Positions 8,431 to 10,900 of a DNA stretch of 64,000 nucleotides are shown here, piece after piece (positions within the stretch are counted from its first letter, which is position 1; every line of letters begins with the position of its first letter). Position numbers and translations under genes: made by a program. The DNA lies in contig NZ_CP076544.1 in the NCBI RefSeq assembly GCF_018885305.1, forward strand, positions 2,356,001 to 2,420,000, written 5' to 3'. The notes beneath the pieces are model-generated. The model was not told the origin of the DNA and did not search any database. It was given only the letters and a program-made list of their open reading frames with translations. The stretch comes from Curtobacterium sp. L6-1 (GTDB lineage Bacteria > Actinomycetota > Actinomycetes > Actinomycetales > Microbacteriaceae).

Positions 8431-8515
8431 TCCCCCGGCGGCCCCGCGGGCGTGGAGCGCGACAGCGCTACGATCGACGGGACGCACCCGGCGGGTGCGC
8501 AGCCGGAGGTCGAGG

Positions 8516-9529
8516 ATGACGATGGGGAACACCAAGCCCGCGACGATCTACGACGTCGCCGCTCGCGCGGGGGTGTCGAAGTCGCTCGTGTCCCTCGTGC
8601 TGCAGCGGTCGCCGCGGGTGAGCGAGCAGCGTCGGGCGGCCGTCCTGGCGGCGATCCAGGAGCTCGACTACCGGCCCTCGACCGCGGCGGTGTCGCTCGC
8701 CGGCACCCGCTCCCGCACGATCGGCGTCGTGCTCGACGACTTCCGGAACCAGTGGTTCGTCGACCTGCTCACCGGTCTGCGCGAGTCACTGCAGGACCAG
8801 GGGCACCGGCTCGTCGTGGCGGACCGGTTCCTCAACACCGGGCTCGACGTCTCCCCCGTCGAGGGCTTCCTGTCGATGCGGGTCGAGGGTCTCGTCATCG
8901 CGGGAGAACCCGACTCCGGCATGGCGATCCCCGCCAGCACGCCGGTCGTGGTGGCGGGCGGTCGGGCGCTCCTGCCACGGGCGGACACGGTGGCGAACGA
9001 CGACCTGGCGGGTGGACGGATGGCGGCGGAGCACCTCGTCGGCCTCGGTCACGTGCGGCTCGGCTTCGTCGGTGGTCGATCCGCGGCGAGCGACGCCCGG
9101 CTCGAGGGCTGGCGCGCCGGCATCGCCGCCGCTGCACGGACCGGCGCCGACGTCAGCGGGACCGCCGTCGTCCTCGCCGCCGACGTCACCGAGGAGACCG
9201 GCGTCGTCGGGACCAACCGGCTGCTCGACGAACACCCCGACGTCACCGCCGTGTTCGCCGCGAACGACGTCACCGCCCTCGGGGCGATGTCCGCGATCGC
9301 CGACCGGGGCCTGCGCGTGCCCGAGGACGTCTCGGTGATCGGCTACGACGACACCCCGATCGCGGCGACCCGGTACGTGGGGCTGACGAGCATCGACGAC
9401 CGCAGCATCGACATCGGCCGCGGGGCCGGCGCGCGGTTGCTCGAGCGGATCGCGGACCCCGGGCTCACCGCCACCGAGGTGCTGGTCGAGCCGCGGCTCG
9501 TCGCCCGGCGGACGACCGCGCAGCGGTAG
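8516..9529 (+). CDS. LacI family transcriptional regulator
   Basis: 337 residues. N-terminal LacI helix-turn-helix: TIYDVAARAGVSKSLVSLVL plus hinge helix region around RPSTAAVSLAGTRS; residues 60-335 form a periplasmic-binding-protein-like sugar sensor (IGVVLDDFRNQW..., VIGYDDTPIAA). GGAGG at 8505-8509 sits 6 bases before the ATG at 8516, which is preferred over ATG 8522. A TACGAT -10-like hexamer occurs at about 8469. No sugar-catabolic genes are adjacent, so its target is not evident from context; it may act on distant genes. Followed by a large repeat-filled intergenic region. Confidence 0.92.
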   Translation: MTMGNTKPATIYDVAARAGVSKSLVSLVLQRSPRVSEQRRAAVLAAIQELDYRPSTAAVSLAGTRSRTIGVVLDDFRNQWFVDLLTGLRESLQDQGHRLVVADRFLNTGLDVSPVEGFLSMRVEGLVIAGEPDSGMAIPASTPVVVAGGRALLPRADTVANDDLAGGRMAAEHLVGLGHVRLGFVGGRSAASDARLEGWRAGIAAAARTGADVSGTAVVLAADVTEETGVVGTNRLLDEHPDVTAVFAANDVTALGAMSAIADRGLRVPEDVSVIGYDDTPIAATRYVGLTSIDDRSIDIGRGAGARLLERIADPGLTATEVLVEPRLVARRTTAQR

Positions 9530-9665: not shown

Positions 9666-10131
9666 CGGGGTGCCCGCCGAGGTCGCACGATCGGCCGCCC
9701 GAGACGCTTCCGCGCGGCAGTTCGTGCGACCCCGGCGAAACGCCCACGGCACGTCGTGCGACCTCGGTGCCCGCTCGGCCCGAACCGGCCCCTCCTCGCG
9801 CTGCCCCGGCACGCGCGGGGCAGCCCGCCGAGGTCGCACGATCGGCCGGCTCGGCACGCCCGCCATGCCCGGCACGCCCGGGGTGCCCGCCGAGGTCGCA
9901 CGATCGGCCGCCCGAGACGCTTCCGCGCGGCAGTTCGTGCGACCCCGGCGAAACGCCCACGGCACGTCGTGCGACCTCGGTGCCCGCTCGGCCCGAACCG
10001 GCCCCTCCTCGCGCTGCCCCGGCACGCGCGGGGCAGCCCGCCGAGGTCGCACGATCGGACGCCCGAGACGCGTTCCGGCAGCAGGTCGTGCGACCTCGGC
10101 GATACGCCGACGGCGCGTCGTGCGACCTCGG
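9666..10131. repeat. complex repeat array with ten copies of a 14-base motif
   Basis: Fills most of the gene-free stretch 9530-10225. Bases 9666-9845 and 9879-10058 are a perfect 180-bp direct repeat. The motif CCGAGGTCGCACGA occurs on the plus strand at 9677, 9828, 9890 and 10041 and in reverse (TCGTGCGACCTCGG, two with one mismatch) at 9722, 9754, 9935, 9967, 10086 and 10118. Three units share an exact geometry: forward site, reverse site 45 bases later, reverse site a further 32 bases later. The third unit (10041-10131) is diverged outside the motifs. Opposed copies can pair into long hairpins, as in REP/BIME-type elements. Not a CRISPR: no regular spacers. Confidence 0.85.
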
Positions 10132-10225: not shown

Positions 10226-10900
10226 TCAGCCCGGCAGCACCGCGTGCCGGACGACCCAGCTGTGCATCACGATCGCCGCCGCCGCCGAGGCGTTGATGCT
10301 CCGCGTCGACCCGAACTGCGTGATCTCGAGGTGCCCGTCCGCGCCCGCGACCGCCTCGTCCGTCAGGCCCGGCCCCTCCTGCCCGAACAGGAACACGCAA
10401 CGCGCCGGGATGTCCGCGACCTCGATCCGCGAGGCACCGAGCGTGTTGTCGATCGCCACCACCGGGCGTCCCTCGGCACGCATGGCCTCGAGGAACGCGG
10501 CCACGTCCTCGTGGTGCCGCACGTGCTGGTACCGGTCGGTGACCATCGCCCCGCGGCGGTTCCACCGGCGTCGACCGATGATGTGCACGGTCCCGGCCAG
10601 GAACGCGTTGGCGCTCCGGACGATCGAGCCGATGTTCAGGTCGTGCTGCCAGTTCTCGATCGCGACGTCGAACGTGTGCCGACGGGTGTCGAGGTCGGCG
10701 ACGATCGCCTCCATCGTCCAGTACCGGAAGCGGTCGACGACGTTGCGGGTGTCGCCGTGCTCGAGCAGTTCCGGGTCGTACTGCGGGCCCTCGGGCCACG
10801 GCCGCGGGTGCGGTCCGACGCCGTGCGTCGTCGCCTCGTGGCTGGGCGGGAGCGCCGGCGGCAGCTCCGGCAGGTCGCCGGACGGGAGGCCCTGGGTCAC
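10226..10900 (-). CDS. TrmH/SpoU family RNA methyltransferase
   Basis: 224 residues beginning at GTG 10900. The SPOUT knot motifs are visible in order: NIGSIVRSANAF (motif 1, about 90), FLFGQEGPGL (motif 2, about 170) and QFGSTRSINASAAAAI (motif 3, about 195). It transfers methyl from SAM, probably to a ribose 2'-OH in tRNA or rRNA; the exact substrate cannot be read from sequence. The N-terminal 60 residues are a Pro-rich extension. The start codon lies inside the loop of a 14-bp stem palindrome (10877-10941), an unusual position that could affect its expression. Confidence 0.88.
   Translation of the reverse strand: MTQGLPSGDLPELPPALPPSHEATTHGVGPHPRPWPEGPQYDPELLEHGDTRNVVDRFRYWTMEAIVADLDTRRHTFDVAIENWQHDLNIGSIVRSANAFLAGTVHIIGRRRWNRRGAMVTDRYQHVRHHEDVAAFLEAMRAEGRPVVAIDNTLGASRIEVADIPARCVFLFGQEGPGLTDEAVAGADGHLEITQFGSTRSINASAAAAIVMHSWVVRHAVLPG

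Follow-up and report, generated by a model that had tools for sequence, protein, structure and literature searches.

Repetitive extragenic palindromic (REP)-like repeats are common in bacteria, and to our knowledge the REP-associated tyrosine transposase (RAYT) is the only dedicated enzyme known for them. The CGTC-tagged REPs are reported to have apparently no dedicated transposase (PMC3733652). Here, we analyzed an intergenic array of the 14-mer CCGAGGTCGCACGA in a 64,000-nucleotide stretch of the Curtobacterium sp. L6-1 chromosome (contig NZ_CP076544.1, positions 2,356,001 to 2,420,000), which as a whole is referred to as the window. The array belongs to a dispersed repeat family that apparently has a DNA-binding nuclease gene of its own as a partner, and this gene perhaps spreads the repeats. 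With a probability of roughly 0.7, a REP-like repeat with a cognate AbiEi-like/nuclease partner is the best explanation, as a whole, of the geometry, the dispersal, the gene–repeat pairing, the co-variation of protein and 14-mer, and the one presence/absence event that we observed. We found no description in the literature of such a nuclease as a partner of REP-like repeats.

Geometry and dispersal of the repeat

The array comprises ten sites at 9677-10131 (eight exact, two with one mismatch), in forward (F) or reverse (R) orientation. An earlier note on this DNA had described ten motif copies in three units, each with an F site followed by R sites at +45 and +32, and an exact 180-bp duplication. 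Both descriptions were confirmed (Table 1), and the borders of the duplication were right to the base, with zero additional matching bases on either side. The third unit, which the note had taken to have only the motifs in common with the others, proved to be more similar than that: it is identical to unit 1 at 58/63 positions within the 21-bp sites, and also at 22/29 positions outside them. The whole window contains 15 matches to the 14-mer (up to two mismatches) versus 4.95 expected, and 0/100 shuffles reached 15.

The motif is not confined to this locus. The L6-1 genome (3.40 Mb, one contig) contains 78 exact copies of the 14-mer and none of a reversed control pattern. All places with exact copies are covered by the window and 21 further stretches, and they make up roughly two dozen intergenic arrays that share one geometry. 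In the 21 stretches, when up to three mismatches were allowed, F and R sites lay 45 bp apart, with further sites of the same direction 31 or 32 bp outward; the exceptions were one stretch with only the 32-bp spacing (L019) and one with mainly 77 bp, i.e., 45 + 32 (L013). Among neighboring sites with up to two mismatches and at most 130 bp apart, 49/59 F–R pairs were spaced by exactly 45 bp and 8 more by 77 bp, and 73/92 same-direction pairs by 31 or 32 bp. The R-to-F distances between units ranged from 44 to 127 without a peak, indicating that spacing is held within units and free between them. The 45/32 geometry, as the earlier note had proposed to check, was kept in the other arrays of the genome and in the genus. 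The dyads (inverted pairs of sites) of L6-1, 65 in total, had the forms FRR (27), FFR (24), FFRR (13), and FR (1), and one locus (L011) had four successive F sites and a single R. The distribution of the exact sites, which reach from 0.30 to 3.37 Mb of the 3.40-Mb chromosome instead of forming one cluster, speaks against a parS-like partition array. The putative binding array suggested earlier is probably one for a cognate protein rather than for a partition protein.

Alignment of the 65 dyads revealed a bipartite 21-bp site, CCGAGGTCGCACGA-nnn-GCCG (type T1), in which the 14-mer is followed by three free bases and a strongly conserved GCCG; the middle 17 bases of the dyad are not conserved. 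We compared the number of Watson-Crick pairs between arms at the three free positions with that in shuffled pairings. The T1 arms formed 137/288 pairs (96 non-redundant dyads; shuffled mean 125.0, largest of 1000 shuffles 146), and the arms of another type, T4, formed 16/51 as compared with 18.4 in shuffled pairings. Neither type showed covariation, and the array matched no Rfam family up to an E-value of 5. The lack of covariation and of an Rfam match favors protein-bound duplex DNA over an RNA stem as the nature of the T1 site, and leaves the earlier suggestion of a structured RNA without support for this type.

The T1 dyads (up to three mismatches) occurred in 34/66 Curtobacterium genomes, from 51 in L6-1 to none in 32 genomes. 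In a set of 299 genomes of the family, 4 matched, all among the 7 members of the genus (0/292 others).

The partner gene and its flanking repeats

The RAYT-like transposase which the earlier note had named as a possible linked partner was not found: PF01797 (Y1/HUH) matched 0/66 Curtobacterium genomes in a search that was positive in 5/14 known control genomes. GTAG is absent from the 14-mer, whose surroundings were not scanned for a GTAG tag. The place that a RAYT would hold is occupied by an AbiEi + Vsr/homing-type protein. In L6-1 its gene (G000:C1:3328203-3329081, locus L030) lies 0.96 Mb from the window array and between two T1 arrays, with inverted copies of the array unit on its two sides. 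The 293-aa product has an AbiEi-like DNA-binding N-terminal half and a Vsr/homing-type PD-(D/E)XK C-terminal half; the latter has the fold and the conserved acidic residues of Vsr/DUF559 proteins, and its nuclease activity is predicted. PADLOC AbiEi matched one of three family members scanned (best E 4e-5). The family had 1 to 5 matches in each of the 66/66 Curtobacterium genomes. Its members are often annotated as 'hypothetical', and the pairing with repeats suggests a function for them.

In G065, the only two T1 dyads flank the partner gene copy, one on each side; the same was observed in G076 and G028. A less closely related paralog, present in G061, G005, and G001, has T2 dyads next to it. 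We scanned the flanks of 90 gene copies in all (60 of them added; further copies exist in the genus), and found dyads upstream of 51, mostly at -156 to -220, downstream of 31, on both sides of 23, and on at least one side of 59. Gene-body control windows had a dyad in 5/270 cases, and 34 control Curtobacterium genes of like length had dyads upstream (2), downstream (6), or on both sides (1). The two flanks of one gene agreed on average at 16.4/18 positions, and flanks of different genes at 12.4. The T1 dyads next to genes of group A (50 copies, at least about 57% identical to the L6-1 protein) had the extra 31/32-bp site on the gene side in 15/18 cases and on the outer side in 4, which places the gene between F-R-R units of opposite orientation. 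A gene family so often flanked by its own dyad is a direct candidate enzyme for repeats without a RAYT.

Three protein clades carry three motif types. The flanks of group A genes contained T1, T4 (CCGAGCGGTCACGA-nnn-GTCG), T5 (TTCTGGTCGCACGA-nnn-GCCG), or no dyad. The other 40 copies fell into two clades of 20 in a tree whose root forks are weak: one with 17 T2-like (...GAGCAGAA-nnn-GTCG), 0 T3-like, and 3 unlabeled flanks, and the other with 11 T3-like (GCGAGCGGGCGAAA), 0 T2-like, and 9 unlabeled flanks. In the T3 examples read, the arms of the dyads are unequal and one arm is itself a small inverted repeat. T1 and T3 arrays adjoin within one gap at L170, L166, and L046.

From gene flanks alone, we predicted in advance that 14 genomes would have T4 repeats and 9 would not. 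The T4 dyads were present in 14/14 genomes of the first list (4 to 57 each, own gene flanks included) and in 2/9 of the second (G007, 15; G034, 4). Under a stricter label rule, three of the 14 (G013, G029, and G084) are classified as 'other', and two genomes off the list (G074 and G075, with 3 and 6 dyads) as T4. When more than two dyads were counted, the Fisher p, with kinship not accounted for, was 1.5e-4 for T4, and 7e-4 for T1 (8/9 vs. 2/14). Flank type required 5 changes on the tree of 33 group A proteins, as compared with 16.2 after shuffling (0/200 as low). The Mantel correlation between protein distance and 14-mer distance was r 0.58 (n 59; 0/2000 permutations). Within group A (n 33), the correlation was stronger for the N-terminal part (r 0.57) than for the C-terminal part (r 0.29; each 0/2000 permutations), which is consistent with the 14-mer being read by the N-terminal half. 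Such a natural set of protein/14-mer pairs may help to explain how an AbiEi-type domain reads DNA.

Outside Curtobacterium, the partner family was matched in 52/57 chosen genomes of other Microbacteriaceae genera, with up to 18 matches per genome. At 30 loci from these genera, a near-perfect dyad was present upstream of 12 genes, downstream of 15, and on both sides of 10. In all 10 two-sided loci the flanks have a 12-mer in common, while 78/90 best flank matches across genes are 6-8 long and one is 12. Dyads were found in 0/60 gene-body windows; of 202 control genes of like length in samples of G150 and G167, 10 had a dyad on the left, 6 on the right, and 0 on both sides. In these 400-kb samples, the motif of each genome recurred away from its gene as 1 dyad in G150 (two mismatches per arm) and 2 in G167, and seven control motifs per genome gave 0 further dyads. 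Among the commonest repeated words in these samples (L293-L332), which come from two different genera, were the 14-mers of a palindrome, CGGATGCCGCGGCATCCG, occurring as many as 15 and 13 times per 400 kb; GTTTCACGTGAAAC, which we take to be a parS-like core, was counted seven times in the G150 sample (L293-L312). Two genomes, G091 and G164, had 18 and 11 partner-family matches, at least one of them with an internal stop, and offer a natural place for viewing many protein/repeat pairs together.

Movement and placement of the units

One presence/absence event was found. In G001 (L336), a T4 unit of four sites, F-32-F-45-R-32-R (123 bp), lies within 128 bp of sequence that G005 (L338/L344) and G061 (L342) lack at the corresponding place. 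The 17-20 bases at the empty site have an alignable counterpart at each border of the G001 unit, and every copy differs by a few private changes. As we read them, the differences at the borders are unlike those expected of a deletion by a single crossover, and the sequences point to an insertion with an imperfect duplication of about 20 bp. For one T4 event, a filled site (G001) and its empty counterparts (G061 and G005), with a putative target duplication, are available. At another place the dyad copy number differs by tandem duplication (6 in G001, 4 in G061, and 1 in G005), a process of like kind to that which produced the 180-bp repeat of the window. In G061 (L036, ~876-1780), three ~270-bp tandem copies have one F-F-R unit each, with other repeated motifs between them.

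The orientation of genes around the 24 arrays was determined with our own simple codon-usage gene finder. Eighteen arrays are flanked by convergent genes, 6 by tandem genes, and 0 by divergent ones; of the 53 adjacent gene pairs in the window, 11 are convergent and 11 divergent (Fisher p 9e-6 and 0.014). The window array is itself placed between convergent genes, which, from their sequences, we take to encode a LacI-type regulator and a TrmH/SpoU-like RNA methylase (Table 1). With the trmH-like gene as an anchor, we located the corresponding gap in the eight nearest named records (seven Curtobacterium, one 'Microbacteriaceae bacterium'). T1 sites were present in 1/8, as a single unit (sp. MCBA15_001, L073); in six of the other seven records the gap up to the lacI-type gene was free of T1 sites, and the seventh (L071) had a different neighbor. 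In four sets of orthologous arrays compared by eye, the sites were recognizable and the spacers had diverged. In C. flaccumfaciens LMG 3645 (L074), G005 (L149), and G061 (L150), the trmH–lacI gap, which in the window holds the T1 array, is filled by one 59-bp T2 palindrome, CTTCGTGAGCAGAA...

Table 1. Coordinates of the array, its repeats, and the adjacent genes in the window.
Feature	Position	Strand	Remarks
Unit 1, F-45-R-32-R	9677..9767	+	sites 9677 +, 9722 -, 9754 -
Lone forward site, at the end of the first 180-bp copy	9828..9841	+	tenth site
Unit 2, F-45-R-32-R	9890..9980	+	exact duplicate of unit 1; sites 9890 +, 9935 -, 9967 -
Unit 3, diverged	10041..10131	+	geometry as in units 1 and 2; sites 10041 +, 10086 -, 10118 -
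Exact 180-bp direct repeat, copy 1	9666..9845	.	
Exact 180-bp direct repeat, copy 2	9879..10058	.	
Presumed LacI-type regulator gene (open reading frame)	8495..9529	+	left convergent neighbor of the array
Presumed TrmH/SpoU-like RNA methylase gene	10226..10900	-	right convergent neighbor of the array

Proposed mechanism, alternative readings, and known systems

In the mechanism that we propose, the window array would be one of some two dozen REP-like repeats built of inverted and direct 21-bp bipartite sites, and the unit would be recognized by the cognate protein encoded 0.96 Mb away. The AbiEi-like N-terminal half would read the 14-mer, with one protomer per site, and the Vsr/homing-type PD-(D/E)XK half would cut the DNA. 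Repair of the cut might then insert or copy a unit, in its full form the 123-bp F-32-F-45-R-32-R; inserted units would be mostly tolerated between convergent gene ends, and arrays would grow or shrink by tandem duplication, as exemplified by the 180-bp repeat. Of the mobile element similar to REPs or bacterial interspersed mosaic elements (BIMEs) proposed earlier, the dispersed intergenic dyads, the held spacing, and one insertion of a sister type stand, and the RAYT partner does not.

Several observations weigh against this mechanism. Shared descent inflates the gene–repeat correlations, and the flank windows and criteria for the 90-copy count were fixed after the flank scan had been inspected. 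With these criteria a dyad is missing from both flanks in 31/90 gene copies; the same is true of 13/30 genes of other genera, and downstream dyads occur also at the 6/34 control genes. T4 is present in 13/43 genomes on neither prediction list, and many T1 dyads (14 in G074, 17 in G075, and 16 in G030) are found in genomes in which T1 does not flank the group A gene. The sole resolved insertion is of type T4, not T1. Finally, the T2 arms look hairpin-like (21/33 pairs; shuffled mean 13.6, largest 21; 11 non-redundant dyads only), so that the repeat types may not all work alike.

The dyads could instead be operators for autoregulation by the AbiEi-like domain, with the dispersed copies as regulatory sites or a titrating sink and the nuclease not acting as a mover. 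AbiEi and Rv2827c are reported to bind inverted repeats of 23 bp that lie upstream of the genes encoding them (PMC7319586), and the preferred position of the upstream dyads would fit such a role. However, the dyads also lie downstream in 31/90 copies, the arrays avoid divergent promoters (0/24, with 18 convergent), and the G001 insertion suggests that a unit can reach a new place, which makes this explanation unlikely. We find it distinctly less probable that the arrays serve chromosome structure, as gyrase or nucleoid-protein sites between convergent genes, where positive supercoils gather, and that the cognate gene merely happens to keep copies: the convergent placement and a spacing near three helical turns are what it would lead one to expect, but the motif type changes from species to species in step with the flanks of one gene, the occurrence is patchy (0 to 51 dyads per genome), and the trmH gap has no T1 site in 7/8 of the nearest named records. 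Least probable, by a small margin, is a family of RNA hairpins (terminators or 3'-end stabilizers) duplicated by recombination, since, although inverted arms at 3' ends can pair and those of T2 do so at variable positions, the T1 and T4 arms do not covary, L011 has four F sites with a single R, and Rfam gave no match.

The cognate-partner reading may extend beyond this genus. We see about even odds for a second, independent REP-like class across the Microbacteriaceae, selfish or domesticated, with an AbiEi/homing-type nuclease, not a transposase, as the enzyme that recognizes a rapidly changing bipartite site and spreads 123-bp four-site units by cut-and-repair, each paralog with its own repeats.

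For the nuclease half (Vsr, homing endonuclease I-Bth0305I, DUF559, REase_MTES_1575), we found no literature link to dispersed repeats; a Caulobacter DUF559 Vsr-like protein is discussed for mismatch repair (PMC12907096), and MTES_1575 is described as a novel Vsr restriction endonuclease (REase) in a large HEPN protein (PMC3710099). In contrast to the AbiEi antitoxin and Rv2827c, the AbiEi-like part is here joined to a nuclease half, and its sites are also downstream and dispersed. Dispersed palindromic repeats without a RAYT are common to our system and to the CGTC-tagged REPs (PMC3733652); those repeats, however, occur in other phyla and differ in sequence and geometry, and a candidate dedicated enzyme exists here. 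The REP/REPIN-RAYT systems (TnpAREP, 'REPtron') resemble ours in that inverted pairs are dispersed outside genes, that a gene has inverted copies of its own repeat on its flanks, and that there are several repeat families, each located next to a gene of its own (PMC3116915, PMC8266576). The differences are that here the Y1/HUH transposase is absent (0/66) and the partner is the AbiEi + Vsr/homing-type protein, that the sites are 31/32 and 45 bp apart, and that the T1 arms do not covary. Because the defining transposase is absent, the system is not a member of the REP-RAYT class, though it behaves like REPs/REPINs, and we read it as a RAYT-less counterpart of the REP/REPIN systems.
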